Assembly: GCA_023251095.1 (NCBI GenBank)
Contig: JAHEZL010000018.1
Span: 1 to 64,000 of the forward strand
Source: Flavobacteriales bacterium
GTDB taxonomy: Bacteria; Bacteroidota; Bacteroidia; Flavobacteriales_C; GCA-002722245
Reading direction: 5' to 3'
DNA: 64,000 nt
Of this stretch, positions 1,263-25,929 are shown piece after piece (the stretch's first letter is position 1; each line of letters begins with the position of its first letter). The notes beneath the pieces were generated by a model. That model did not search any database, was not told the origin of the DNA, and was given only the letters and a program-made list of their open reading frames with translations. The position numbers and the translations under genes were made by a program.

Positions 1263-3181
1263 AATCCATTCACCTTTTTCCAAACTGCAAAAGAGATAAA
1301 TTTAAATATCCTTCTGTTTTCGGGCGATTGGCGCTGATCAAAAAAAGTGTCGTAATTTTTATGGAGGTAATTTAAATCAATAAAGTCTTTTAAATCGGAA
1401 GTGAAATAATCCTTTACTTCCTCTTTTATTTCATAGATCCATTGGTTGTTGGGAGTGGTATATCCGAGCTTGTCCTTGCGCAAACGAACTTCTTCGGGGA
1501 TGTAGCCTTTGATAGATTCTTTCAACAAATATTTCAAGGTATTGTTGGCAATTTTATAATTACCGGAAATGGAAAAGAGCAATTCACTCAATTCTTTATC
1601 ATCGGCCAAAGGAACGCGGGATTCCACGGAAAACCACATAGAACAACGATCTTCACATTTTAAATACGATTTCAAACTGCTGTTGTAAAACTCATGGGCG
1701 AGTCGTTCATTGAGTGTAAATTGCTGATCGTTTTTAAAATCCTGAAAGGTTTTGTCGGAATATTTATCGTACAAATCACAGTTGATCATTTTAAAATCAG
1801 GGAAGTTGGCGCGGTAAGCTTTTTTAAGTACCGACAATGGAAATCGGCGTAAACCGTGGTACTTCATCCATTGCTTGCCCAAATATTTTTGTCGGTTTTC
1901 AAAGTTTAAAAAATAGCGGTGCGGTTCGTAGCCTGCAAACAATTCATCGCCACCCTGACCGTCCAATACCACTTTTATTCCGGCTTCTTTCACTTTTCGC
2001 ATCACACGCCATTGGGCATAGGTGCTGGTGGAGAAGAGGGGGATGTCCTGACATTTTGTTAATTCTTCCAGATCTTTTAATAGCTCAGCCGATGTAGGTT
2101 GCACGGTGTGCCATTGTCCGCCGGAATAATCCACCATCATTTTGGCCCATTTACTCTCATCAATTTTTGGATCGAGGTTGGTAGAAGTGAACAAATGAAT
2201 TTTGTTGGCAGGCTCCAAATAATGCATCAATCCTACTATAGAAGAGCTATCCATACCACCGCTCAAACATGAACCCACTTCAACATCGGCGCGCAAACGC
2301 AATTTTACAGCTTGTTTTAATCGCTCCAGGATCTCTTCCTGGTACTGAACTATTTTTTTTGAATCTATTTCTTCCCAAGCCTTATTCACTGGAAGGGTGT
2401 AGTATTTTTCGGTGGAAATTTCACTCGTTACGAGATCAATGAAAAGATGGTGAGCCGGCTCCAGTTCTATGATTCCTTCTAATAAGCCCTGCGGATGATT
2501 TTCAATTTCATTAAAGCTTAAATAATCAAAAGCAGCCTGATGATTGATCTTTTTAGGGATGAGTCCGGAATGTAAAATCGCTTTATGTTCAGAAGCAAAA
2601 AGGAATTTCGCTTCATCTTTAAAATAGTAAAAAGGTTTAACGCCAACGCGATCTCTGCTGCACCAAATAAGGGATTTGCTGCGATCGTAAATCACAAAGG
2701 CCCACATGCCGTTGAAGCGCTGAACACAATCTTTCCCCCATTCACGGTAAGCTTTTAAAATAACTTCGGTATCGGAATTAGAGAAAAAACGATGGCCTTT
2801 TTTCACCAGTTCTTCTTTAATTTCAAGGTAGTTGTAAATTTCGCCGTTATAGGTAATCCAGATAGTGGAGTCCTCTGAACTCATTGGCTGGTGGCCCGAA
2901 GGAAAAAGATCCAATATACTTAAGCGGCGGTGCGCCAATCCGATTTGGTGATTTTTATCTGCTTCGGAAATGTGTTTTTTAGGAAGGAAAGATAAATCAG
3001 CTTCACTTACTTTATTGGGAGTAGCCGATCCTGTGTAAGCTTGATAATCTTGCGGATTAAATAGGGCAAAACCTTCATCATCGGGACCGCGGTGAGCAAT
3101 TAAATGATTCATTTTTTCCAGTACTTTTGCAGTGCTGAAAGCAGGAGATGAAAAATTTATTATTCCGCAGATGCCGCACAT
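1259..3181 (-). CDS. asnB: Asparagine synthase (glutamine-hydrolysing)-like amidotransferase
   Basis: The 640-residue protein has the class II glutamine amidotransferase N-terminus MCGICGIINF with Cys2 as the nucleophile. A C-terminal ATP-pyrophosphatase synthetase domain has the PP-loop SGGMDSSS. The general reaction transfers glutamine-derived ammonia to an adenylated carboxylate. It may make asparagine, but it lies in a glycan cluster one base after a sulfotransferase gene. AsnB homologues in such clusters often amidate uronic acids of surface polysaccharides, and I favour that role as inference. Its stop overlaps the next gene's ATG (ATGA). Length is normal for AsnB. Confidence 0.85.
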   Translation of the reverse strand: MCGICGIINFSSPAFSTAKVLEKMNHLIAHRGPDDEGFALFNPQDYQAYTGSATPNKVSEADLSFLPKKHISEADKNHQIGLAHRRLSILDLFPSGHQPMSSEDSTIWITYNGEIYNYLEIKEELVKKGHRFFSNSDTEVILKAYREWGKDCVQRFNGMWAFVIYDRSKSLIWCSRDRVGVKPFYYFKDEAKFLFASEHKAILHSGLIPKKINHQAAFDYLSFNEIENHPQGLLEGIIELEPAHHLFIDLVTSEISTEKYYTLPVNKAWEEIDSKKIVQYQEEILERLKQAVKLRLRADVEVGSCLSGGMDSSSIVGLMHYLEPANKIHLFTSTNLDPKIDESKWAKMMVDYSGGQWHTVQPTSAELLKDLEELTKCQDIPLFSTSTYAQWRVMRKVKEAGIKVVLDGQGGDELFAGYEPHRYFLNFENRQKYLGKQWMKYHGLRRFPLSVLKKAYRANFPDFKMINCDLYDKYSDKTFQDFKNDQQFTLNERLAHEFYNSSLKSYLKCEDRCSMWFSVESRVPLADDKELSELLFSISGNYKIANNTLKYLLKESIKGYIPEEVRLRKDKLGYTTPNNQWIYEIKEEVKDYFTSDLKDFIDLNYLHKNYDTFFDQRQSPENRRIFKFISFAVWKKVNGL

Positions 3182-6596: not shown

Positions 6597-8690
6597 TCAA
6601 TTTAGTGTTTTTGACTTTATGCGCAAAGAATTGCCGATAACTATCACATCAGAAAAGGCCATAGCCAAAGCGGCAAAAATCGGCATTAACAATCCGAAGG
6701 CAGCGACCGGTATCGCCAACACGTTGTAAAACAAGGCCCAGAAGAGATTTTGTTTGATGGTTTTTAAAGTGATTTTACACAAGGCTACTACTTCGGTAAT
6801 CTGTTTCAAACTCTTGTTGTTCAGTAAAATAATGTTAGCCGATTGTTTGGCCACATCGGTAGCGCCACCCAATGAAATGCCTACATAAGCTTTGGCCAGC
6901 GCAGGCGCATCATTGATACCATCGCCCACCATTGCTACTTTTCCTTTGGCATTGAGTTCATCAATCACTCTTAATTTATCCTCGGGTTTTTGCTCGCTGT
7001 ATATTATAGAGATGCCGATTTCTTTTGCGAGGGCTTCACATTTTTCTTTTTTATCTCCTGATAATAACACCGGTTCGATGCCGTTTTTTTTCAGCCATTG
7101 CATAGAGCTGAGCACATCTTGTTTCAATTCATCTTCAATAAAAACAGAGGCGATACAGATATCATTCTCCAGCAAATCGATTTCCCCGGCAGCATTTCCG
7201 CTTATTATTTTATATTCCTTATTGTCATAAGTCCCCGAAATACCAACGCCTTTGATCTCTTTTATATTTTGCATTTCCAACAGAGTAGAAGCAGAGCTCA
7301 GTTCTTTACAAATGGATTTTGCAATGGGGTGGGCCGAACGGATTTCCAGTGAGAACAAAATATTATGAATGAATGCTTCGGGAGAAGAATTGTGTGTGGT
7401 GATTTTTTTGATTTTAAAATTCCCTGTGGTGAGTGTTCCCGTTTTATCAAAAACGATGTATTTAACCTCCGACAGCATTTCAATGGTAGAGCCTCCTCTG
7501 ATTAAAATCCCGAGTTTTGCTGCTTTTCCAACCCCCACCATAACAGCGGTGGGAGTGGCCAGTCCCATTGCACACGGACAAGATATCACCAGCACCGCAA
7601 TGCTGTTCATGATAGACACTTCCATTCCTTTAGCAGCAAAAAAATAGGTGATTAAAAAGGTAAGCAATGAAACTCCTAAAACCACCGGAACAAACACAGC
7701 ACTTACTTTATCGCCCAAACGCTGGATATTGGGTTGATTTTCCTGAGCGCTTTTCACCAACTGAATGATTTGTTGCAGCGTTGTATCTCTGCCGATACGG
7801 TTGATGGTGATTTTTACGGAGCTCTCTTTACACAAGGTTCCGCCAATGACCTGATCGCCCTTTTTTTTCAGCACCGGAACACTTTCTCCGGAAATCATGG
7901 ATTCATCTACCCAGCACTCTCCTTCACTGATCAAGCCATCCATTGGAATTTGTTCTCCTTCGCTCACCAATACTATGTCTCCGATTTTAAGTTCATCGGC
8001 ATTTTTAATGCTGAAAGCTTCCTTGCTCATTAATCCATTGAACACTTTGGCTTTCACTTTTTGTAATTTGGAGAGCTCCTCAATCGCTCCCGTGGTACGC
8101 TTAACAGCAAGATGTTCTATCCAGTTTCCCAACAACACCAAAGTGACAATAGAAGCTGCAGTTTCAAAAAACAGATATTGATGGTGATGACCTTTGCTTA
8201 AAAAGAAAGTTCCCACCAAACTGTAAAAATAAGCGGAGGAAACTCCTATGAATATGAGTACATCCATGTTAGGAAGCAGCACTCTTACTGATCCCCATGC
8301 ACTTTTTCCGAAATGAAAAAATCCGATTAAGAAAACAGGAGTGGATAAAATCAATTGAAAATAAGGATTATTCAATATAGAGTCATCTGCCGCAAACATA
8401 TGAAAGAGTAGGGGAGCGGTAAGTACAGAACAAATGATCAAGAGCGTTTTTAGTTTAAAAAATCCTTCTCCATGTGAATGACCATGATTTTCAGGAATAA
8501 CCGTATATCCTAATTTACTGATAGAATCAACTATTCCGGAGATGTCTTTTTTCTCGTAAACAAAAGCAGCTTCGCCTGTAGTGAAACTCACCGAAACGTC
8601 TTGCGCCCCTTGCTTTTCCATGACTTTTTTAATCGTCATGGCGCAGTTGGTGCAATCCATTCCCTGTATATTTAAACGCTGTTTTTCCAT
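6597..8690 (-). CDS. copA: Copper-exporting P1B-type ATPase
   Basis: The 697-residue protein has one N-terminal heavy-metal-associated domain with GMDCTNCA (about 10-17). After it come a His-rich linker, the actuator motif SGES, the metal-translocation motif CPC in VISCPCAMGLATP, the phosphorylation site DKTGTLT and the hinge MVGDGINDAPALA. CPC-type P1B ATPases pump Cu(I) (or Ag(I)) out of the cytoplasm. Its length fits the single-HMA form. It is the first gene of the minus-strand cluster, and the following GT4 starts seven bases after its stop, so copper export and glycan synthesis seem to share a transcript. The first accessory-region repeat lies just upstream. Confidence 0.93.
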   Translation of the reverse strand: MEKQRLNIQGMDCTNCAMTIKKVMEKQGAQDVSVSFTTGEAAFVYEKKDISGIVDSISKLGYTVIPENHGHSHGEGFFKLKTLLIICSVLTAPLLFHMFAADDSILNNPYFQLILSTPVFLIGFFHFGKSAWGSVRVLLPNMDVLIFIGVSSAYFYSLVGTFFLSKGHHHQYLFFETAASIVTLVLLGNWIEHLAVKRTTGAIEELSKLQKVKAKVFNGLMSKEAFSIKNADELKIGDIVLVSEGEQIPMDGLISEGECWVDESMISGESVPVLKKKGDQVIGGTLCKESSVKITINRIGRDTTLQQIIQLVKSAQENQPNIQRLGDKVSAVFVPVVLGVSLLTFLITYFFAAKGMEVSIMNSIAVLVISCPCAMGLATPTAVMVGVGKAAKLGILIRGGSTIEMLSEVKYIVFDKTGTLTTGNFKIKKITTHNSSPEAFIHNILFSLEIRSAHPIAKSICKELSSASTLLEMQNIKEIKGVGISGTYDNKEYKIISGNAAGEIDLLENDICIASVFIEDELKQDVLSSMQWLKKNGIEPVLLSGDKKEKCEALAKEIGISIIYSEQKPEDKLRVIDELNAKGKVAMVGDGINDAPALAKAYVGISLGGATDVAKQSANIILLNNKSLKQITEVVALCKITLKTIKQNLFWALFYNVLAIPVAAFGLLMPIFAALAMAFSDVIVIGNSLRIKSKTLN

Positions 8691-8800: not shown

Positions 8801-8880
8801 GAGAAAACAGTTCCGCATTTCGAATCAATTCATTAAGGATTTAGAGATTTTAAATGAGTTTCAGCGAGATGGGATAATCT
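8801..8880 (+). repeat. Accessory-region repeat R1 (leftmost arm)
   Basis: R1 aligns with R3 and R4. Shared blocks include TTCCGCATTTCGAA, then a purine-rich AAGGATTTAGAGATTTT-like stretch, then ATGAGTT and a GAGAT run. It lies immediately downstream (minus sense) of the first toxin gene, whose stop codon falls at its right end. It marks the probable left boundary of the cassette region against copA. Confidence 0.6.
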
Positions 8881-9199
8881 AAATGTCCGTTAATTTCATA
8901 GGGTCTAAACTCGTGTGAAATACTCTAATGATTCTTACATCAGAATTTTGAATACGGTAAATTACTTTGAATCTACCTTTAACAGTTTTGAATCTGTAAT
9001 TTTCGTGAGTAAAAGCATTAATATAAAACTCAAGTGGATACCTTTCAGGATGTGTTTCAAGGGATTTAACCTCATGTAAAATAGCGTTTTTGACTATTGA
9101 TGCTATTTGCGGTGATTGTTTTTTATACTTAATGTAGTCATGGATTTCTTTAAGGTTGGACTTAGCAAGTACCGACCATTTGATTTTGAATGCAGTCAT
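8879..9199 (-). CDS. Type II toxin, ParE/RelE superfamily (TA1)
   Basis: The 106-residue protein has the compact ParE/RelE fold pattern. An N-terminal strand and helix (KIKWSVLAKSNLKEIHDYIK) lead to the conserved C-terminal strands RFKTVKGRFKVIYRI and VRIIRVFHTSLDP. Family members either block gyrase (ParE) or cleave mRNA on the ribosome (RelE); the sequence alone does not choose. Its ATG shares one base with the antitoxin stop (TAATG), so expression is coupled to the antitoxin. The gene stop lies inside repeat R1, so the pair fills the R1-R2 cassette exactly. Confidence 0.8.
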   Translation of the reverse strand: MTAFKIKWSVLAKSNLKEIHDYIKYKKQSPQIASIVKNAILHEVKSLETHPERYPLEFYINAFTHENYRFKTVKGRFKVIYRIQNSDVRIIRVFHTSLDPMKLTDI

Positions 9200-9444
9200 T
9201 ACCAGTTCTCAGATTCTTTTTCTAAATCTTCCTGAGAAGTGTAATTACCATCACTTATTTGTTGTTCAGCAGTAGCAATATCAACCAATAATTTAGCAGT
9301 AGTAATTGGTGTGCCATCAACTTCATATCCCACAACTTTGTTCAGTTCTTGTTGTAAGCGTTCAAACTGAGTAACAACAGATTCATTTCCTGCTGATTTT
9401 AACCAATTAGAAAGAATGTCTATTCTGTTTTGTAATGGTTCCAT
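9199..9444 (-). CDS. Antitoxin of TA1
   Basis: I place the start at ATG 9444, giving 81 residues beginning MEPLQNRIDILSNWL. Longer in-frame versions would translate the promoter: the -7 box lies at 9462-9469. The C-terminus SQEDLEKESENW is nearly the same as that of the TA2 antitoxin (SQKDLEKDSKNW), so the two are homologues. The protein is small and acidic with predicted helices and no recognisable DNA-binding motif by eye. It presumably neutralises the adjacent ParE/RelE toxin. Its own length matches its relatives at 75 and 66 residues only with this start. Confidence 0.72.
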   Translation of the reverse strand: MEPLQNRIDILSNWLKSAGNESVVTQFERLQQELNKVVGYEVDGTPITTAKLLVDIATAEQQISDGNYTSQEDLEKESENW

Positions 9445-9469
9445 GACACTTGATTTATACTCAAATATA
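9445..9469 (-). promoter_or_regulatory. Promoter of TA1
   Basis: The minus strand reads TATATTTGAGTATAAAT, with TATATTTG (9469-9462) matching the Bacteroidota -7 consensus TAnnTTTG exactly. Seventeen bases separate the box from the ATG, leaving a leader of roughly ten bases and no Shine-Dalgarno. The same box and spacing recur at TA2 and TA3. Confidence 0.7.
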
Positions 9470-9538
9470 CGAAAATCCATATTGTTTGTTTTATGGTTCT
9501 GGGAAACGAGAGCATTTTTTGTTAGTAGGTTATAAACT

Positions 9539-9567
9539 AAAAAAGCTACCCTTGTTAGGGTAGCTTT
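9539..9567 (-). terminator. Intrinsic terminator
   Basis: The stem AAAGCTACCC / GGGTAGCTTT (9542-9551 with 9558-9567) has a six-base loop and is followed on the minus strand by a run of T. It would stop minus-strand transcripts coming from the LytTR gene before they reach TA1. It sits just left of repeat R2, the same order seen at R4, R5 and R6. Confidence 0.7.
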
Positions 9568-9575
9568 ATAGATTC

Positions 9576-9712
9576 TGGCGGACTGCAAGATCAATATTTT
9601 GAACAACGTTTTAAAGGATTTAGAACTTTTGAGTGGATTAGATTAGGATTAAAACGGTTAGGAGAATTTTATTCTTCCTTAAAAACACAAAATGTTCGAA
9701 ATTTAAATAGCA
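9576..9712 (+). repeat. Accessory-region repeat R2
   Basis: About 137 bp beginning TGGCGGACTGCAAG, closely related to R5 and R6. A 32-bp stretch (9671-9702) is identical to 20505-20536 in R6. It lies between the TA1 promoter region and the LytTR gene. The remaining bases to 9829 show no gene. Confidence 0.8.
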
Positions 9713-9829: not shown

Positions 9830-10492
9830 TTATTGCTGAATTTTTTCAAGTAATAAAGGCTTATAGGAATGACTTACTTTGATTTCATTACCATTGATAA
9901 TGATGGTGTTTTTATTGAAATTTCTCACGTAATTCAAATTGACAATACTGGATCTATGCACTCTCATGAAAATATTTTTCGGTAATTTATTTTCTATCGC
10001 GTTAAGAGAAGTGTAAATCAAATGCATTTTGTGTGTGGTATGAATTTCTACATAATTCACGGCTCCTTTAATAAATAAGATGTCATTATAATACAACTTT
10101 AGCATATTACCCCCTGAAGTTATATTTAGTGAATCTTCTTTTTTCTTGTCTGAGGGAATTTTACTTATTGCTTTTTTTAGTTCGGTTAATGAAAAAGGTT
10201 TTAATAAGTAGGCAATAACATTGAATTGAAAGGCATCAAAAGCATATTCTTTTTTACTGGAGGTAATAATTACCGGACAATTGATTGGAGTGGAATCTAA
10301 AAATTCTATTCCTGTCATCCCCGGCATTTCAATATCTAAAAAAATTACATCGGGTTCCTGAATTAACTTATTGTTTATATAGGCCAAAGGATTGCTGAAT
10401 TCGCCCACAATACTCATATTGCATTTTTGTTCTAATAGTTCTTTAAGGATGATCCTTTGAATAGAGTTGTCTTCAAAAATAAGCGCGTTCAT
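9830..10492 (-). CDS. LytTR-family response regulator
   Basis: The 220-residue protein has an N-terminal receiver (1-115) with acidic pair E7/D8, phosphorylation site D53 in FLDIEMPGMTG, T77 and the KPF lysine K98. A LytTR DNA-binding domain follows (about 125-220, with FIKGAVNYVEIHT and MRVHRSSIVNLNYV). LytTR domains bind pairs of direct repeats about 21 bp apart. Such repeats lie in its own divergent promoter region and at two more places nearby. No LytS/HisKA_LytT sensor kinase is adjacent; the phosphate donor may be one of the hybrid kinases next door. That partnership is inferred from position only. Confidence 0.9.
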   Translation of the reverse strand: MNALIFEDNSIQRIILKELLEQKCNMSIVGEFSNPLAYINNKLIQEPDVIFLDIEMPGMTGIEFLDSTPINCPVIITSSKKEYAFDAFQFNVIAYLLKPFSLTELKKAISKIPSDKKKEDSLNITSGGNMLKLYYNDILFIKGAVNYVEIHTTHKMHLIYTSLNAIENKLPKNIFMRVHRSSIVNLNYVRNFNKNTIIINGNEIKVSHSYKPLLLEKIQQ

Positions 10493-10519: not shown

Positions 10520-10555
10520 TTTTACATAAAAAAAACCACTTTTGACATAAAATTA
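10520..10555. promoter_or_regulatory. Predicted LytTR operator A
   Basis: Two copies of ACATAAAA start at 10524 and 10545, exactly 21 bp apart, each preceded by TTT plus one base. The site lies in the divergent region between the LytTR regulator and the first anchored receiver. A conserved CCGTAAATA block follows at 10575, 34 bases before the receiver ATG. Confidence 0.6.
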
Positions 10556-10608
10556 AAAAAACAATTATTTAGCCCCGTAAATATAACTGTACTTTAAAAC
10601 AATTATTT

Positions 10609-11154
10609 ATGGAAACTACTAATGAAAACAAAAGAGATACCAGTACGGTTATTTCCACTAGGGAGGGCTGTGTTTTTCTGGTAGATGACAACTTCATGTA
10701 TTTAAATATACTGGAAGCTGCTTTGAAAAAAGTATTGCCTAATGCGACTGTAGTATGTTTTAAATCAGGGGAAACAGCAATACAGGCTTTGGATCAGAAA
10801 CCATTTTTGATATTATTGGACTATGATTTGGCCGGAGTTAACCCAAATGTAATGAATGGTATTAGCGTATTGAAGGCCATAAAAAAAGCAAATTCCGAAA
10901 TACAGGTGATCATGCTTTCCGGAGTGGAAGATACCAAAATCATTACCACTTCTATGAAACACGGTGCGTTTGATTATATTATTAAAGGTGAAAAAGCCAT
11001 ATTTGATATCCGCCATCGATTGACCAGCATTTTAAGAAAAATGCGACTTACCGATGAAAAACATGATGAAAAACAAGTAAAATGGTTTTTGAGATGGGCG
11101 GCAATAATTGTAGTGATTTCATTTTTGGTAGGATTTCTTTTACATGAGATATAA
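10609..11154 (+). CDS. Receiver domain with C-terminal transmembrane anchor
   Basis: This 181-residue protein has a 20-residue leader and a complete receiver: acidic pair D26/D27, phosphoacceptor D71 in LLDYDLAG, S104 and K127. A single hydrophobic helix follows at about 160-178 and ends the protein. There is no DNA-binding or enzymatic output domain. A receiver held to the membrane by a tail anchor is unusual and suggests a scaffold, phosphate sink or membrane-localised signal. It lies upstream of, and in the same direction as, the H-NOX and hybrid-kinase genes. A close paralogue at 13945 has the same architecture and promoter elements. Confidence 0.85.
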   Translation: METTNENKRDTSTVISTREGCVFLVDDNFMYLNILEAALKKVLPNATVVCFKSGETAIQALDQKPFLILLDYDLAGVNPNVMNGISVLKAIKKANSEIQVIMLSGVEDTKIITTSMKHGAFDYIIKGEKAIFDIRHRLTSILRKMRLTDEKHDEKQVKWFLRWAAIIVVISFLVGFLLHEI

Positions 11155-11194
11155 AAGACTAAAAAAATAACAGTGTAATCTAAAAACTAAATAT

Positions 11195-11737
11195 ATGAAA
11201 GGTGCTATTTTTAATATTTTTGAAGAGTTCATTATCCAGAAATTTGGCGTGGAAGTTTACGAAAATATTCTTCAACACTCCCAAATTGAAACGAAGGACC
11301 CCTTCATATCAGCAGGAACTTATCCCGATACCGATTTTTACAAACTGGTAGGTACTGCATGTAAGTTATATAATTTGCCGCCGGAAGAGGCTCAAAAAAT
11401 GTTTGGCCGCTTTACCTTTGTTGAATTGGCTAAATTCCAACCTCATTTTGTGGAGCCTTATAAGTCGGCGAAAAGCTTTCTGTTAACAGTAGATAGTGTG
11501 ATTCATGTGGAAGTGAAAAAACTATATCCCGACGCCTACTTGCCTAAATTCATTTATTCGGAACCTTCTAAAAACGAATTGCAAATTATTTATATCTCCA
11601 AAAGAAAACTCTATTCTTTTATGGAAGGATTGATTGATGGTGTTGCGGATTATTTTAAAGAAGACATAGATGTGGAATTCGACACCATGCTATACAATGG
11701 CGAAGAAGCTTGTAGGTTTCATTTAATATTTAAATAA
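11195..11737 (+). CDS. H-NOX heme nitric-oxide sensor
   Basis: The 180-residue protein starts MKGAIFNIFEEFI, as H-NOX proteins do, and keeps the key residues: proximal heme ligand H104, conserved P117 and the propionate-binding YxSxR motif (Y133, S135, R137). These sit two positions later than the standard H102, P115 and Y131/S133/R135. The position matching the distal Tyr140 of oxygen-binding members is Phe142, so it should bind NO and exclude O2. It is followed seven bases later by a soluble hybrid kinase, the usual H-NOX partner. It presumably controls that kinase in the cytoplasm. Confidence 0.92.
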   Translation: MKGAIFNIFEEFIIQKFGVEVYENILQHSQIETKDPFISAGTYPDTDFYKLVGTACKLYNLPPEEAQKMFGRFTFVELAKFQPHFVEPYKSAKSFLLTVDSVIHVEVKKLYPDAYLPKFIYSEPSKNELQIIYISKRKLYSFMEGLIDGVADYFKEDIDVEFDTMLYNGEEACRFHLIFK

Positions 11738-11744
11738 CGATTTG

Positions 11745-13565
11745 ATGGAAGAGCAGTTAAAAATACTGGAAACCCGCTATTTAAGGGAGAAGCAGAAAAA
11801 TACTCTTCTTGAAAAATTTATTGAAGATAAATCGAGGGAGCTGTATTTAGCTCAAGCTGAATTGAAGACACAGTATAATTTGCAAAGCTCTGTGTTTCAA
11901 CAACTTTTTGAAATAATACATCAATATAAAAATACAGACTCTATTGAGAGTTCAAACAAAGCACAGGAATTTCAAAATATTCTTTCTCTGGTAACTGAAT
12001 TAAAAATAATCATTCGGGAATTAGAAGAAGCTAAAGTAAAGGCAGAGTCTGCTGCCGTTGCCCGATCAAGATTTTTAGCCAATATGAGTCATGAAATCCG
12101 CACTCCTATGAATGGCATTATGGGGCTAGCTAAATTACTTGAAAACACTGCTGTAAATGAGAAACAACAAAAGTACTTATCGGCTATAATCACCTCTTCC
12201 GATACTTTACTGGCCATTATCAACGATATTTTAGATATTTCAAAAGTGAACGCCGGTAAGATGGAGGTGGGGTTAAAAGAATTCAACCTCAATTTTTTAT
12301 TGAAATCTTTATTGAGTGTGTTTGAAGAAAAGGCAAAAACCAAAGGATTAAAAATGATATATAAATCCGATGATAACCTTCCTTCAAAAAACTACCTTGG
12401 TGATGCAGTGCGCCTGAACCAGATTTTATACAACCTCATGGGGAACGCGCTTAAATTCACGCATCAGGGAGAAGTGACTTTGTCAATCAGGGTTATTGAA
12501 GTTCAGGATGAAAAAATTAAAATTGCATTTTCTGTAAAAGATACCGGTATTGGTATTCCATATGAAAAACAAGAAATTATTTTCAATCCTTTTGTTCAGG
12601 TGAATGATGAAAGTACAAGACAGTTTGGTGGTGTTGGTTTGGGTTTATCAATAGTAAAACAAATGGTTGAGTTATTGAAGGGACAGCTTACTTTGGTGAG
12701 TGAACCTGACAAGGGAAGTGAGTTTACTTTTATTTTGGATTTTTTACAAGTAGAAAATAACACTTGCGAACTCAAGCCCGAAAACAACTTTAATGATTTA
12801 GCAAAAAGAAACATAACGGCATTACTGGTAGAGGACAATCCTATTAATCAGATGTTCGCCAAAGATTTACTGGAAAGTAAAAATATCTCCGTAGTCACGG
12901 CAAACAATGGTAAAGAAGGAATAGAAGAATATGCCAAAGCTGATTTTGATATTGTACTAATGGATATGCAAATGCCGGTTATGGATGGCTATGACGCTAC
13001 CAAATACATTCGTAGTAATTTCCCGGAAACAAAAAACAAAGTGCCTATTTTAGCCATCACTGCTCACGTTATGGAAGGTGAATTAGAGAAATGCACCAAT
13101 GCAGGTGTTTCAGCATATTTATCAAAACCTTATCAACCAAAAGACTTGTTCACGTCAATAACAGCATTGATTGACGGTCAACAAATGAATCAATCATTAA
13201 AACAAAATATTATGGCAACGAATGAAGAAAGAAAATCATTGTTTAATTCCGATAAGTTATTAATGGCAATGGATGATGATAAAGCATTAGCTGATAAAGT
13301 AAAAAACATGATGATAGAAGAACTCCCCAAAGATATGGCGCGCATGGAAGAAGCTCTTGCTAATAAAGAATGGGAGAGAGTAGGTGCCATTGCACATTAC
13401 ATAAAACCTAATATACGAATGTGTAGTACCGATGAAATGTATGAAGATGTATATGCTTTAGAAAAAGATGGCAAAGGACAGATGAATATTGAATCTATTC
13501 CGCAAAGAATGGATAAGTTAAAGAAAGATATCATTACTCTAATTCAAGATATGCAAAAAATATAA
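11745..13565 (+). CDS. Soluble hybrid histidine kinase with receiver and HPt (H-NOX-associated)
   Basis: I use ATG 11745 (606 residues); one codon upstream is a TTG. Order: N-terminal helical/coiled-coil region without membrane helices (1-105), HisKA with H116 in MSHEIRTPMNG, HATPase with NLMGNALKFT, DTGIGIP and GVGLGLSI, then a receiver with EDN, D407 in LMDMQMPVMDG and the SKP lysine. Last comes an HPt domain with H551 in AIAHYIKPN. This gives a complete His-Asp-His relay in one protein. The lack of any sensor domain fits regulation by the H-NOX protein encoded seven bases upstream. Final acceptors could be the anchored receiver or LytTR regulator; this is inference. Confidence 0.9.
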   Translation: MEEQLKILETRYLREKQKNTLLEKFIEDKSRELYLAQAELKTQYNLQSSVFQQLFEIIHQYKNTDSIESSNKAQEFQNILSLVTELKIIIRELEEAKVKAESAAVARSRFLANMSHEIRTPMNGIMGLAKLLENTAVNEKQQKYLSAIITSSDTLLAIINDILDISKVNAGKMEVGLKEFNLNFLLKSLLSVFEEKAKTKGLKMIYKSDDNLPSKNYLGDAVRLNQILYNLMGNALKFTHQGEVTLSIRVIEVQDEKIKIAFSVKDTGIGIPYEKQEIIFNPFVQVNDESTRQFGGVGLGLSIVKQMVELLKGQLTLVSEPDKGSEFTFILDFLQVENNTCELKPENNFNDLAKRNITALLVEDNPINQMFAKDLLESKNISVVTANNGKEGIEEYAKADFDIVLMDMQMPVMDGYDATKYIRSNFPETKNKVPILAITAHVMEGELEKCTNAGVSAYLSKPYQPKDLFTSITALIDGQQMNQSLKQNIMATNEERKSLFNSDKLLMAMDDDKALADKVKNMMIEELPKDMARMEEALANKEWERVGAIAHYIKPNIRMCSTDEMYEDVYALEKDGKGQMNIESIPQRMDKLKKDIITLIQDMQKI

Positions 13566-13599
13566 GTTAATTACCTCCCGTTTTTGTTTTAAAAACGAT

Positions 13600-13635
13600 G
13601 TTCACATAAAATATCGCTCATTTCACGTAAAAATC
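13600..13635. promoter_or_regulatory. Predicted LytTR operator C
   Basis: ACATAAAA at 13604 and ACGTAAAA at 13625 are 21 bp apart, each following TTC. The conserved CCGTAA block lies 31 bases downstream of the second repeat (13656), as at operators A (30) and B (31). No open reading frame begins at the expected distance. Confidence 0.55.
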
Positions 13636-13669
13636 TAAAAACAACTAAATGCCATCCGTAATAGAACCA

Positions 13670-13783
13670 AGTAAAGGCAGTCATTCAAGAAGTACAAGCT
13701 AATAAATATACCCCTTTCATAAATCCCGTCCCGTCCATTTTCATCCTCCCAAAAAGAGAGAGTTCCCCACTCTCTCTTTTTTG
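13670..13783 (+). ncRNA. Candidate C-rich small RNA driven by operator C
   Basis: Between operator C with its CCGTAA block and a strong intrinsic terminator lies about 110 bp with no credible ORF. The predicted transcript has several C-rich single-stranded patches: CCCCTTTC, CCCGTCCCGTCC, CCTCCC, and TTCCCC in the terminator loop. Start and end are inferred, not measured. No RNA family was recognised. Confidence 0.45.
13751..13783 (+). terminator. Intrinsic terminator of the candidate small RNA
   Basis: An eight-base-pair stem GAGAGAGT / ACTCTCTC (13756-13763 with 13769-13776) with loop TCCCC is followed by six T. It ends plus-strand transcription before operator B. Confidence 0.75.
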
Positions 13784-13854
13784 TTTAATATGATATGTGG
13801 CTTCCTTTAGTTCAGACATAATATTTTGCTGAGGTATTAATTAAAATGAAGTGA

Positions 13855-13890
13855 TTTCAAATAAAATAGTGCGGTTTTCACATAAAATCA
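13855..13890. promoter_or_regulatory. Predicted LytTR operator B
   Basis: AAATAAAA at 13859 and ACATAAAA at 13880 are 21 bp apart, both after TTTC or TTC. The CCGTAAATA block follows at 13911, 34 bases before the ATG at 13945, the same spacing as upstream of the paralogous receiver gene at 10609. Confidence 0.6.
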
Positions 13891-13944
13891 TAAAAATAAT
13901 TAGTGCGATTCCGTAAATACAGCTAAACGTTAAAGCTATTCATT

Positions 13945-14493
13945 ATGGCAGTCACACAAAAGAAAAAAAGAGATTCCAGCGCGGTTCTTTCTACGCGAAA
14001 GGGTTGTGTTTTTCTGATAGATGATAACGCAATATATTTAACTACATTGGAGCGGGAGTTGAAAAGACTATTGCCCAATGTTGTTGTATCGTGCTTTAAA
14101 TCGGGTGAAAAGGCAATTGCAGAATTACATCAAGCTCCTTTTTTGGTTTTATTGGATTATGATCTCGCTGGAGTTGATCCTAATGCAATGAATGGTGTCA
14201 GTGTGTTACAGAGAATTAAGGCTTGCCTTCCGGAAACCGAAGTGATTATGCTTTCAGGAGTAGAAGACTTAACAATTATTTCCACTTCTATGGAATATGG
14301 CGCATTAGATTACATTATTAAAAGTGACAACGCTATTTTGGGTGTGCGCCAACGTCTTACCAATATTTTAAAGAAAATGAGAATCACTGATGAGACTCAT
14401 GAGAAGAAACAATTAACTCGGTTTATTGTATCGGTAGGCATATTTGTTATTGTAGCTCTTGCAATGGCTATCTATGTAACTTATGGTTACTAA
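13945..14493 (+). CDS. Receiver domain with C-terminal transmembrane anchor (paralogue)
   Basis: This 182-residue protein is a close paralogue of the one at 10609. Blocks such as LLDYDLAGV, MNGVSVLQ, IMLSGVED and LDYIIKS align without gaps, and acidic pair D26/D27, D71, S104 and K127 are all kept. One hydrophobic helix (about 160-178) ends the chain. The basic leader and the linker after the receiver are also conserved. It precedes a membrane-bound hybrid kinase, so the anchored receiver plus hybrid kinase looks like a duplicated module. As with its paralogue, no output domain is present. Confidence 0.85.
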   Translation: MAVTQKKKRDSSAVLSTRKGCVFLIDDNAIYLTTLERELKRLLPNVVVSCFKSGEKAIAELHQAPFLVLLDYDLAGVDPNAMNGVSVLQRIKACLPETEVIMLSGVEDLTIISTSMEYGALDYIIKSDNAILGVRQRLTNILKKMRITDETHEKKQLTRFIVSVGIFVIVALAMAIYVTYGY

Positions 14494-14571: not shown

Positions 14572-16719
14572 ATGAATCCAATTGCCTATCAACTTAATAT
14601 TATTGGAGCTCTTGTCAGCGCTATCTTGGCAGTTGTTTTTGTTTTAGCAATTGGTGAATCATCTTGGATCCCATCAGTAGTTGCAGGTGTTATTTATTTA
14701 CTAAATATAGCCAACAAACATCCGATGTTTCACTCCTTAATTTTTTACTGTACCACTATAATCGCAATCTTTAAAGATACTTTGTTGTTTGGCTTGGAAA
14801 CAAATATTCATTATTCTTTCATTACCATGATCATTGTTTCTTTTTTAATTTTCCCCAATAATAAAGCATTCCGAATCACCGCCTTATTTATTACAGGTAT
14901 TCCTTTCTTCAGCACAATATTCTTTGCTTCATGGTATATGCCAAGTATTCAACTTGACACAACTCTCATTTCAATTGTTTCTGGTTTATTTTCAGGAATT
15001 AATTTTATAGTTTTTTTATATATGGTTTCCTTTTTTACTTCGGAAAAAACAACCAAAGAAAAAGAGCTTAACGAACAACTTGATACTGTCACTATACAAA
15101 AAGGGGTGATAGAAAAAGCTCAACGCGAATCTATACTTGCCAATGAAGAATTACATCAATTGTATCATAAAATACAGAAACAAACTATCCTGCTAAAAGA
15201 AACTCAAAAACTTTCCAAAATAGGGACATGGAAATTAACTGTATCAAACAACACTGTTTTTTTTTCAGAGGAAGCAAGGGTTATACTGAAAATAGATTCT
15301 TCTGAATTTGTTGCATTTGAAAAATGGCTAAATTATTTTTCAAATAAAGATAAGTTGAATCTGGAACGTTTTATTTATAAACTTAAAAACGACTATACTC
15401 CTTTTGAACAAGAATTTCTCATCAATATTGGTGAAGAAGAGTGTTGCATTAAGATAATGGGAAAAGCAGAAGTACACGATAACCAAATTATTAGGATATA
15501 TGGAGTAATTCAAGACATTACTCAGGTATATGAAAACGAAAAATTAAGAAATGAAAAATTAGACGCTGAAAATTTAGCAAGTGCCAAAGCGCTCTTTCTT
15601 GCAAAAATGAGTCATGAAATAAGAACCCCTATTAATGGAGTCATGGGGATTACTCACCTGATGCTGAAAACTGATCTCAGCGAAAAACAAATGAAATATG
15701 CCAAAGCCATAGAAACTTCATCAGATACACTTTTAATGATAGTGAACGACATTCTGGATATATCAAAAATAGAATCCGGCAAAATGACTTTTGAAAAGAA
15801 AGACTTTGAAATAAAGGAACTGATACACTCGGTGTATGAAATGTTTTTGAATAAAGTGGCGGAAAGAAGTATTAGTTTGGTTTATCATTTTCAGGAAGGA
15901 ATTAAAAATAAATTATTGGGAGATCCTACACGATTGAACCAAATATTATACAACTTAATTGGAAATGCGATAAAGTTTACCAGTCATGGCCAAATAGAAA
16001 TATTGTTGAGTGGTAATAAAATAGAGAATAACATTCTGATGACTAAAATAATTGTAAAAGACAGCGGAATAGGAATTGAAAAAAACAAACTCGACCATAT
16101 TTTCGAATCATTTACACAGGCTGAAAGTGATACTACTAGAAAATATGGAGGAACAGGATTGGGCCTATCTATTGTTAAGCAATTAGTGGAACTACAGGGT
16201 GGAACAATCAACGTTAGAAGTGAAATCGGAAAAGGATCGGAATTTGAAGTATTGATTCCTTATGAAATACAATATGAATACAATACAAACGATTCAGTCA
16301 ATAAGGAAATCGTCAATGTAAATAAAGCTTTGATTAAAGGAATAAAAATCCTTTTGGTGGAAGACAATCCGATTAATCAGATGGTTATTAAAGATATGTT
16401 GGAAGCTCAAGGCGCAATCATTCATATTGCCAATAACGGGCAGGAAGCCGTTGATACTGTTAAATCCAATAGCGATGCGTTTGAAATTGTATTAATGGAT
16501 ATGCAAATGCCTGTTATGGATGGCTATGAGGCAATGCGTAATATTAGAGAGAAACTTTTAATCTCACGTGAAAATCTTCCTATCATCGCTTTAACAGCTC
16601 ATGTCATGGAAGGTGAAATGGAAAAATGTATGAATAGCGGTGCTAACGATTATATATCAAAACCATTTAAACCCAATGATCTGTATAAAAAAATACTAAC
16701 CATAACTCATCGGATGTAA
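14572..16719 (+). CDS. Membrane hybrid sensor histidine kinase with PAS and receiver
   Basis: The 715-residue protein starts with about five or six membrane helices (1-175). A coiled-coil linker, a PAS-like fold (about 215-325, ending GVIQDITQ), HisKA with H348 in MSHEIRTP and HATPase follow (NLIGNAIKFT, DSGIGIE, GTGLGLSI). A C-terminal receiver has EDN, D643 in LMDMQMPVMDG and KPF. No HPt domain is present, unlike the kinase at 11745, so it needs an external HPt or acts back on another partner. It has no obvious ligand-binding periplasmic domain; the signal may be sensed in the membrane or by PAS. The gene is 78 bp after the anchored receiver. Confidence 0.9.
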   Translation: MNPIAYQLNIIGALVSAILAVVFVLAIGESSWIPSVVAGVIYLLNIANKHPMFHSLIFYCTTIIAIFKDTLLFGLETNIHYSFITMIIVSFLIFPNNKAFRITALFITGIPFFSTIFFASWYMPSIQLDTTLISIVSGLFSGINFIVFLYMVSFFTSEKTTKEKELNEQLDTVTIQKGVIEKAQRESILANEELHQLYHKIQKQTILLKETQKLSKIGTWKLTVSNNTVFFSEEARVILKIDSSEFVAFEKWLNYFSNKDKLNLERFIYKLKNDYTPFEQEFLINIGEEECCIKIMGKAEVHDNQIIRIYGVIQDITQVYENEKLRNEKLDAENLASAKALFLAKMSHEIRTPINGVMGITHLMLKTDLSEKQMKYAKAIETSSDTLLMIVNDILDISKIESGKMTFEKKDFEIKELIHSVYEMFLNKVAERSISLVYHFQEGIKNKLLGDPTRLNQILYNLIGNAIKFTSHGQIEILLSGNKIENNILMTKIIVKDSGIGIEKNKLDHIFESFTQAESDTTRKYGGTGLGLSIVKQLVELQGGTINVRSEIGKGSEFEVLIPYEIQYEYNTNDSVNKEIVNVNKALIKGIKILLVEDNPINQMVIKDMLEAQGAIIHIANNGQEAVDTVKSNSDAFEIVLMDMQMPVMDGYEAMRNIREKLLISRENLPIIALTAHVMEGEMEKCMNSGANDYISKPFKPNDLYKKILTITHRM

Positions 16720-16930: not shown

Positions 16931-17236
16931 TTACTTTGCTCGTTTTATTTTTTCTGGGTATTGTCGTGAGTCAAAGATATCTACAATACAAATTTCTTTA
17001 GGAGTTACTTTGTAAATCACTTTGAAGTTACCACTTACAAGATATCGGTAATCATCTTTCCTGTCTTTTAGAAGTTCTTCCTTTTGAGCAGAATGCTTAA
17101 AATTTTCAAGTTGACTAGTTGATTGGAAAATTTTACTTTTTATTGATTGAGCAACTTCAACCGAGGCTTTCTTTTTATAGAAATTATAAATCTTGCGAAG
17201 TTCTTTCGTAGCTGGAATAGTCCAAGTAACTTTCAT
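16931..17236 (-). CDS. Type II toxin, ParE/RelE superfamily (TA2)
   Basis: The 101-residue protein shows the family's pattern: a helical N-terminal half (ATKELRKIYNFYKKKA) and C-terminal strands with DDYRYLVSGNFKVIYKV and ICIVDIFDSRQ. The Arg/Tyr-rich strand region is where RelE-type members hold catalytic residues, but the type of toxicity cannot be fixed. The ATG at 17236 lies five bases after the antitoxin stop. Together with its antitoxin it fills the segment between repeats R3 and R4. Only distant similarity to the TA1 and TA3 toxins is visible. Confidence 0.8.
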   Translation of the reverse strand: MKVTWTIPATKELRKIYNFYKKKASVEVAQSIKSKIFQSTSQLENFKHSAQKEELLKDRKDDYRYLVSGNFKVIYKVTPKEICIVDIFDSRQYPEKIKRAK

Positions 17237-17241
17237 TGAAC

Positions 17242-17469
17242 CTACCAGTTTTTAGAATCTTTTTCTAAATCTTTTTGAGAAATCACTTGTCCCTTTTTAA
17301 TGGCATTTTCAGATTTGTCAATTCTGGAATAAAATTCATCGGATGACATTGGAGATAGTTCAGCGTCCTTTTTAGATTGAACAAGTTTTTCAATCTTATT
17401 AATTAAAGACTCATCGTTAAGGTGAATCAACGTTTCAATTAGGGTTAATTTTCTTGCCTGAATATTCAT
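17242..17469 (-). CDS. Antitoxin of TA2
   Basis: I set the start at ATG 17469 (75 residues, MNIQARKLTLIETLIHLND). A longer frame would begin with TTG at 17490, which is the last part of the -7 promoter box itself and is therefore unlikely to be translated. The C-terminus SQKDLEKDSKNW matches that of the TA1 antitoxin. The protein is short, charged and helical. It should bind the toxin encoded five bases downstream. Confidence 0.72.
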   Translation of the reverse strand: MNIQARKLTLIETLIHLNDESLINKIEKLVQSKKDAELSPMSSDEFYSRIDKSENAIKKGQVISQKDLEKDSKNW

Positions 17470-17495
17470 AACAGCATCATTTATACTCAAATATA
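17470..17495 (-). promoter_or_regulatory. Promoter of TA2
   Basis: TATATTTG at 17495-17488 (minus strand) is a perfect Bacteroidota -7 box. It is followed by AGTATAAATGA as at TA3, with 18 bases between box and ATG. The upstream 25 bp are also nearly identical to those of TA3. Confidence 0.72.
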
Positions 17496-17892: not shown

Positions 17893-18204
17893 TTATCTTA
17901 AGTTCTTTTTAATACGTTCGTCCCAGCTACTTGGGTCTTTACTGGTGTGAAATACTGCAATTACTTTCAGTTCTTTTTTATCAATGAAATAATGAATACC
18001 AAAGGGAAAATCTTTAGTGAAAAAGATTCTTAACTTTTTGTATTTGAGTTGGCAGATATTTGGATTCTGAGAAATAGCATTTAAACCATCATTAATAGCT
18101 TTTTCAAAGGAATCACCTAAGCTACTTTTCTGCATTTCATACCAGTGAAAGGATTCGTAAATATCCCATTCAGCTTCTTGCGAAAGGAGAACGGTGTATT
18201 TCAT
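17893..18204 (-). CDS. Type II toxin, ParE/RelE superfamily (TA3)
   Basis: The 103-residue protein begins MKYTVLLSQEAEWDIYESFHWYE, with a helical first half (to about 55) and the ParE-like C-terminal strands KKLRIFFTKDFPFGIHYFI and LKVIAVFHTSKDPSSW. This pattern, together with the antitoxin family beside it, supports a ParE-type gyrase or RelE-type ribosome toxin. The start codon directly follows the antitoxin stop with no gap. The gene lies between repeats R4 and R5. Confidence 0.82.
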   Translation of the reverse strand: MKYTVLLSQEAEWDIYESFHWYEMQKSSLGDSFEKAINDGLNAISQNPNICQLKYKKLRIFFTKDFPFGIHYFIDKKELKVIAVFHTSKDPSSWDERIKKNLR

Positions 18205-18405
18205 CTAGGAACGCAATCTTTTTTTTACGTCAGCCCAAGTAGAGAAAGTAGTTTCATCATTATTTACTCTTTCCATTCGTTTATCCAGCTCTTTTTTTTG
18301 AGCTGCAGATATTTCAACAGAGGAAGTATCTATGGTGTTCCAAATCTGTTGCATTAGATTTAGTCTTTCGGTTACGCTTAGTTTTAATATATCTTGCATT
18401 CCCAT
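18205..18405 (-). CDS. Antitoxin of TA3, addiction-module (Unstab_antitox) family
   Basis: The 66-residue product (MGMQDILKLSVTERLNLMQQ...) fits the addiction-module component family. It has an LSVxERLxLxxxIW helix, a KKELDKRMERVNND helix and the C-terminal STWADVKKRLRS. I chose ATG 18405 over TTG 18426, since the latter lies inside the -7 box. This antitoxin family is usually paired with RelE/ParE toxins, as found here. It differs from the TA1 and TA2 antitoxins although the promoter is shared. Confidence 0.82.
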   Translation of the reverse strand: MGMQDILKLSVTERLNLMQQIWNTIDTSSVEISAAQKKELDKRMERVNNDETTFSTWADVKKRLRS

Positions 18406-18431
18406 AACACAGTCATTTATACTCAAATATA
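18406..18431 (-). promoter_or_regulatory. Promoter of TA3
   Basis: TATATTTG (18431-18424, minus strand) followed by AGTATAAATGACTGTG and the ATG 18 bases after the box. The segment from about 25 bp upstream to the start is nearly the same as at TA2, though the genes differ. Confidence 0.72.
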
Positions 18432-25744: not shown

Positions 25745-25929
25745 TACCATCAAGAAGGCGTTCTTTATATTACAACTGGTTCATAGAAAGTAAATTACAG
25801 TTCACGCAGAACAAGTACATTTCAATTATGGTGCCTGTACAATTTTAATACTAATTTACCCGTTAGTTTATTCCTAGATTTCTGCGTGAGCTTTGTTCCT
25901 CCATCCCCAATGGAGGAACTTTTTTTTTG
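25745..25929 (+). ncRNA. Candidate structured small RNA with intrinsic terminator
   Basis: No plus-strand gene lies upstream, yet a very strong plus-strand terminator ends at 25929. The preceding 150 bp can fold into several helices: AAGAA/TTCTT, AACTG/CAGTT, and a nine-base-pair closing stem CACGCAGAA (25803-25811) with TTCTGCGTG (25880-25888). That stem encloses GTACA/TGTAC and ACTAA/TTAGT. The arrangement looks like a multibranched non-coding RNA of about 185 nt. A 6S-like RNA is one possibility; I could not confirm a family. No convincing ORF spans it. Confidence 0.55.
25895..25929 (+). terminator. Strong intrinsic terminator without an upstream gene
   Basis: GTTCCTCC / GGAGGAAC (25895-25902 with 25912-25919), loop ATCCCCAAT, followed by nine T. 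On the minus strand no T run follows, so it acts on plus-strand transcripts. Confidence 0.85.

Follow-up and report, generated by a model that had tools for sequence, protein, structure and literature searches.

Does an operator that resembles those of two neighbouring protein genes, and that is followed by a strong terminator where a gene would be expected, control a regulatory RNA? The question is raised by positions 13601-13785 of the window (the whole stretch of 64,000 nucleotides that was analysed), which comes from a member of the Bacteroidota whose genome amounts to 3.59 Mb in 43 contigs. The original prediction took this segment for a candidate small RNA gene driven by a LytTR protein and likened it to RNAIII of staphylococci. 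As a reading of the DNA, a small RNA gene under the control of the H-NOX/kinase/LytTR system next to it indeed fares best, and we give it a probability of about 0.6: chance does not account for the layout of the segment, an ORF is absent and the terminator lies well away from the end of the upstream gene. The features on which this reading draws are as follows.

9830-10492, minus strand: response regulator with a LytTR DNA-binding domain (Pfam LytTR 4.7e-20, Response_reg 1.4e-17)
10521-10583, plus strand: operator/promoter A, TTTACATAAAA-N10-TTGACATAAAA, then CCGTAAATA 30 nt past the second ACA
10609-11154, plus strand: RR_A, receiver-domain protein (Pfam Response_reg), first gene under operator A
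11195-11737, plus strand: H-NOX haem NO-binding protein (Pfam HNOB 9.1e-39)
11745-13565, plus strand: hybrid histidine kinase, HisKA-HATPase-receiver-Hpt (Pfam)
13601-13632, plus strand: operator C, LytTR half-sites TTCACATAAAA (13601) and TTCACGTAAAA (13622), period 21 bp
13656-13664, plus strand: promoter element CCGTAATAG of C, 31 nt past the second half-site
13671-13785, plus strand: predicted small RNA of ~110-115 nt, its start placed by the spacing seen at A and B
13710-13750, plus strand: C-rich stretch ACCCCTTTCATAAATCCCGTCCCGTCCATTTTCATCCTCCC, predicted to be single-stranded, containing the sequence complementary to the start of H-NOX
13751-13783, plus strand: intrinsic terminator with a perfect 13-bp stem, loop TCCCC (13764-13768) and T tail
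13856-13919, plus strand: operator/promoter B, CCGTAA at 13911, laid out as A and C
13945-14493, plus strand: RR_B, receiver-domain protein (Pfam), first gene under operator B
14572-16719, plus strand: second hybrid histidine kinase, HisKA-HATPase-receiver (Pfam)

RR_A and RR_B are paralogues with 59% identity. The window also holds small adjacent ORF pairs on the minus strand (8879-9606, 16931-17490 and 17893-18426) which have the appearance of candidate toxin-antitoxin loci of the RelE/ParE type.

Operator C shares its anatomy with operators A and B

Operators A, B and C each consist of two TTNACATAAAA half-sites 21 bp apart with CCGTAA 30-31 nt after the second ACA. Operator A starts at 10521 and has its CCGTAA at 10575; in operator C the hexamer is found at 13656, 31 nt past the second ACA/ACG, and the spacing of this element is common to the three operators and to an operator in genome G014, from another family. 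LytTR proteins bind 9-bp repeats that are 12 bp apart and lie directly upstream of promoters (PMC6193735); operator C has this arrangement (TTCACATAA-12-TTCACGTAA, 13601-13630, followed by the promoter element), and its anatomy therefore suits the neighbouring LytTR gene. Throughout the 3.59-Mb genome, the double repeat occurs with 0-1 mismatch at A, B and C only, while matches with 3 mismatches stay at background, their number being equal to that of the reversed control. Extended with CCGTA, the pattern has 3 forward matches, 0 reverse matches and 0 control matches in the same genome, and across 149 genomes it is near background apart from G014. None of 5000 dinucleotide shuffles of 13566-13850 reached the score of operator C. 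The restriction of this layout to three sites in the genome and the outcome of the shuffles argue that, as a sequence feature, operator C is genuine and has its promoter element at the correct distance, and the resemblance to A and B on which the original prediction was built is borne out. The response regulator encoded at 9830-10492 is the presumed activator of A, B and C, and the co-location of its gene with operator C makes it the putative protein that binds and activates this site. A TTG / TAnnTTTG consensus is not clearly present at promoter C. A further double repeat with the 21-bp period, TTCACAGAGAA/TTCACAGAAAA, maps to the minus strand of contig C33 (37299-37330), upstream of an ORF without Pfam match; we rejected it as a fourth operator, as it is not beside a LytTR gene and is devoid of CCGTAA.

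A terminator in place of a gene

In A and B an ATG is situated exactly 34 nt past the start of CCGTAA. Operator C has AAG at this place, and a search of the plus strand of 13661-13751 for ATG, GTG and TTG returned none, in agreement with the earlier statement that no ORF starts where one would be expected. By analogy with A and B, the 5' end of the RNA would lie at about 13671. The strong terminator that had also been proposed downstream of operator C was recovered; its inverted repeat spans 13751-13781 and is followed by a T tail on either strand. Perfect-stem terminators are rare, with 98 on both strands of the 2.30 Mb that were read; this and the other terminator and start-region statistics rest on 2.30 of 3.59 Mb (64% of the genome), in which gene starts are longest-ORF calls made without annotation. 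When those terminators were considered that lie no more than 300 nt past an ORF and have no opposite gene end nearby (n=40), 38 of them were found no further than 50 nt from the stop codon; the remaining two are at 232 nt and, in the case of the terminator downstream of operator C, at 186 nt. Given this distance, the 13751-13781 terminator is a better match for promoter C than for the gene upstream and most likely closes the promoter C transcript. The segment, in which an ORF is absent, would thus have a promoter and a terminator of its own, both predicted from sequence alone.

Where strong terminators are not near an ORF end, several lie behind tRNAs or genus-conserved RNA segments, others serve a gene on the opposite strand, and for a few no explanation is at hand. 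CCCC terminator loops were seen in 5/23 orphan or opposite-gene terminators and in 1/67 terminators beside genes (Fisher p 0.004), an enrichment to be read as a hint only because the test was chosen after seeing the data and its classes are not cleanly separate (the terminator at C20:18325 also ends a minus-strand gene).

The body of the predicted RNA is C-rich and predicted to be unstructured

Three C-rich patches precede the terminator: ACCCC (13710-13714), TCCCGTCCCGTCC (13724-13736) and TCCTCCC (13744-13750). The body of the RNA folds no better than its shuffles (z +0.3), and the stability of the whole RNA (z -4.5) is owed to the terminator. The patches are therefore predicted to be single-stranded and the sole C-rich loop, TCCCC, is that of the terminator, so that the C-rich patches of the original description stand as single-stranded stretches and its C-rich loop as that of the terminator alone. 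The C-richness of the body is unusual, though not unique: four or more CCC runs were counted in 45 of 9470 intergenic windows of 83 nt, many of the 45 falling in a dispersed repeat. Taken with its operator and terminator, promoter C probably drives a C-rich regulatory RNA of ~110 nt rather than a protein gene.

Alternative readings of the segment

A real, if minor, possibility is that promoter C is an orphan, either a duplicate of A or B, operator and promoter together, or the remainder after the deletion of a gene, and that it yields a short, meaningless transcript running into the terminator. Since A and B are duplicated promoter-gene units, as the paralogy of RR_A and RR_B indicates, a third copy without a gene would be natural; the RNA body bears no sign of selection, and in a MAFFT alignment the leader of B parallels C as far as the lost start codon. 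Local and global alignments with shuffles nonetheless gave no significant similarity of C to A and B in the leader (p 0.54 and 0.16) or in the coding part (p 0.35 and 0.27), whereas A against B gave p 0.0005, and a recent gene remnant of A or B was rejected on these grounds. The leader of a recent copy should still resemble A and B, which disfavours such an origin; C may still be an old remnant or a spurious promoter. Against an orphan also speak the intact state of the operator, the promoter element and the rare strong terminator, as well as the unusually C-rich body. It is distinctly unlikely that the segment holds no separate RNA because the terminator belongs to the H-NOX/kinase operon, with operator C serving as an auxiliary LytTR site for operator B, 255 bp downstream. 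The operon is on the same strand, there is no other clear terminator from the kinase stop at 13565 to 13751, and cooperative binding is possible for LytTR proteins; yet the 186 nt that separate the stop from the terminator are atypical of this genome, and a mere auxiliary site would not need a promoter element at exactly the distance seen at C.

The order of promoter C, terminator and RR_B on one strand would also suit a leader or attenuator, in which promoter C transcripts conditionally read through the terminator into RR_B and the RNA is cis-regulatory, but this is very unlikely in view of the unstructured body, of the lack of an antiterminator pairing and of operator B with its promoter, which serve RR_B from between the terminator and the start of that gene. 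Hardly credible is a minus-strand mini-gene (MKMDGTGFMKGVYLLACTS, within an ORF at 13685-13819) whose G-rich codons would account for the C patches on the opposite strand. The ORF has 44 codons, and GGGAGG is found directly upstream of internal ATGs; a length of 19-44 codons is at chance level, however, SD-like sites are unused in the genome, no promoter was identified, and the hairpin, being T-tailed both ways, would halt a minus-strand transcript ahead of the internal ORF.

Relatives of the sensing system and proposed mechanism

Relatives of the LytTR protein are mostly from Chitinophagaceae, Pedobacter and other Bacteroidota, and the H-NOX/hybrid kinase/LytTR cluster is recurrent in this phylum (loci L034, L040, L074 and L125). 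The three genes form, in this order, one compact operon in L034, L040 and L074, a gene association which suggests that the LytTR regulator is the output of H-NOX sensing. NO is the established ligand of H-NOX proteins in general, and presumably that of the protein encoded here. In view of the adjacent H-NOX, kinase and LytTR genes, which form one operon in remote relatives, the operator C RNA would be expected to be produced in response to NO.

G014 has a 0-mismatch operator beside H-NOX, HNOBA-type kinase and LytTR genes of its own, where it precedes an RR_A-like gene; altogether, two LytTR-type operators lie within this cluster (L125), one of them ahead of a receiver-protein gene. Beyond these two, the search for more operators in relatives with LytTR or H-NOX genes yielded only weak repeats, in G004 and G031; none of these operators and repeats precedes a non-coding segment. 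DNA searches of the family's 9 other genomes returned no homologue of the RNA, only short chance matches; this H-NOX is likewise missing from them.

In the mechanism that we propose, NO bound to H-NOX would alter the activity of the kinase and, through a phosphorelay, that of the LytTR regulator, which would bind operator C and activate the promoter around CCGTAA. The operator anatomy common to the three sites suggests that A, with its own sensing operon, and B, with the second receiver/kinase pair, would be activated together with C. The promoter C transcript, ~110 nt long, would stop at the strong terminator, and its unstructured C-rich body would pair in trans with its targets, most likely across their start codons, in the way of GibS from Bacteroides.

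Possible targets

SD-like sites are rarer before the starts of genes (16/1402) than inside genes (31/1402). Pairing of the C-rich patches with Shine-Dalgarno sequences is therefore unlikely, the genome being essentially without such sites, and start codons become the most likely sites of pairing. Target prediction at start regions, which the original prediction had proposed as a check, showed no enrichment of pairing over gene interiors: duplexes with the C-rich stretch had a mean energy of -10.2 kcal/mol in start regions and of -14.1 kcal/mol in gene interiors. SD targeting in the manner of RNAIII or RoxS was accordingly rejected, both for the depletion of SD-like sites at starts and for the weaker duplexes of the start regions. 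Pairing over start codons of the kind described for GibS (PMC7366714) would be more plausible.

One local start drew our attention. The start of the H-NOX gene (TATGAAAGG, 11194-11202) is complementary over 9 bp to CCTTTCATA (13713-13721) in the RNA, and ATGAAAGG, with which this gene begins, opens 3 of the 1402 genes surveyed, H-NOX included. The energy of the pairing (UAUGAAAGG with CCUUUCAUA), -13.0 kcal/mol, is not outstanding, and 21 of 300 shuffled RNAs (7%) paired over 9 bp with one of the five local starts considered, for which reason the pairing is a lead and not a result. If used, this weak candidate target would provide negative feedback on the sensor.

Other candidate RNAs in the genome

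A number of other candidate RNA genes were encountered in the same genome. RNA-D (25797-25925 of the window, plus strand), a structured candidate (z -7.1), lies unannotated between two minus-strand ORFs; it has a closing helix TCACGCAGAA/TTCTGCGTGA, a terminator loop CCCCA and no Rfam family, and is 94% identical over 138 nt to a segment at the syntenic place of genus-mate G003 (L209). On contig C34 (L228, the piece 120001-140000), positions 16364-16534 of the minus strand present a promoter, TTG-N-TACATTTG, and a terminator with the loop TGCCCCACA; this candidate is present in the host genome and four other genomes of the genus (5/5) at 75-90% identity, its loop is kept in 3/4 of the aligned sequences, and it has no Rfam match at gathering score. 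Contig C2 (L313, the piece 100001-113802) carries at ~2083-3031 of the plus strand a tandem array of three related candidates with CTATACCCCCCTTTAGTG and the conserved CTATACCCCCCTTTAGTGACTTTGAAA; the array is also tandem in G003 and G004, at 94% identity, and recalls multicopy small RNA families such as FopS. A possible further C-rich RNA on contig C32 (L265, the piece 72001-92000, ~7344-7430, minus strand) ends in an orphan terminator with the loop AACCCCAA; the short segment ahead of it has a box, TATATTTG, and the patches TTCCCG and GTGCCCCAGTG. We also note a dispersed intergenic repeat, AATCCCTCTTGCC...CTCCCTTTTTCAAAGGGAGAAG, with many copies in the genome (e.g. C14:32281, C28:32181 and C24:746). 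The operator C RNA compared with the C2 RNA (common TATACCCC..TTT) at p 0.06 and with RNA-D at p 0.07, and with the others not significantly; these comparisons do not show one sequence family among the C-rich RNAs of this genome. With these genus-conserved candidates, the lineage appears to possess C-rich RNA genes.

Comparison with known systems

RNAIII is a structured RNA of ~514 nt which encodes delta-haemolysin and whose C-rich loops target Shine-Dalgarno sequences. The operator C RNA, with ~110 nt, an unstructured body and no start codon or ORF, is not of this type. What holds of the likeness to RNAIII drawn in the original prediction is the LytTR regulator driving an RNA; what does not are the C-rich loops and the targeting of SD sites. 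In RNAIII (AgrA), VR-RNA/VirT/VirU (VirR) and SpoZ (RgaR) the RNA is activated via two direct repeats (PMC10602386, PMC6193735), and the operator C RNA is like them in its AgrA/VirR-kind regulator and its two direct repeats, the regulation being predicted here. The signal of the present system is presumably NO and not a peptide.

Rfam found a single tRNA in the window at gathering threshold, and no Bacteroides small RNA family even in a permissive scan. GibS and FopS of Bacteroides are largely unstructured, end in an intrinsic terminator and pair over start codons (PMC7366714, PMC11697453). They share with the operator C RNA the phylum, the unstructured body and the intrinsic terminator, but are transcribed from sigma-ABfr promoters, whereas promoter C is of the activator type and has no such consensus.

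Because the neighbouring genes make up an H-NOX sensing system, RoxS/RsaE is a closer functional analogue than RNAIII. This RNA of Bacillus and Staphylococcus (RF01820) is under the NO-responsive two-component system ResDE/SrrAB and, like the operator C RNA, has C-rich regions, a length of ~110 nt and an intrinsic terminator (PMC4409812). Membership in its family was rejected: the permissive scan placed RF01820 over 13698-13782 with a covariance-model score of 17.1 bits, far below the gathering score of 79 (E 3.1). The regulator is ResD in RoxS/RsaE and of the LytTR type here, where the sensor is H-NOX, and C-rich region 3 of RoxS acts on a ribosome-binding site (PMC4409812), whereas the present genome is almost without SD sites. 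The most far-reaching version of our proposal, rather unlikely as a whole, would have a Bacteroidota H-NOX/kinase/LytTR system control a C-rich RNA which covers the start codon of H-NOX and so feeds back on its translation; the RNA would be one of a larger set of C-rich RNAs in a genus that lacks SD sites, and an independent counterpart of RoxS/RsaE with another targeting logic. In the limited set of literature searched, small RNAs were linked neither to H-NOX sensing nor, within Bacteroidota, to LytTR regulators, which is no proof of novelty. Were it transcribed, the operator C RNA would have evolved independently as a counterpart to the NO-induced small RNA of Bacillus and Staphylococcus. 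If it is real, C-rich small RNAs under NO control would have at least two separate origins, with unrelated sensors and regulators. One could then ask by experiment what C-rich RNAs target where Shine-Dalgarno sequences are not in use, a question wider than this locus given the several other candidate C-rich, genus-conserved RNA genes of the genome.
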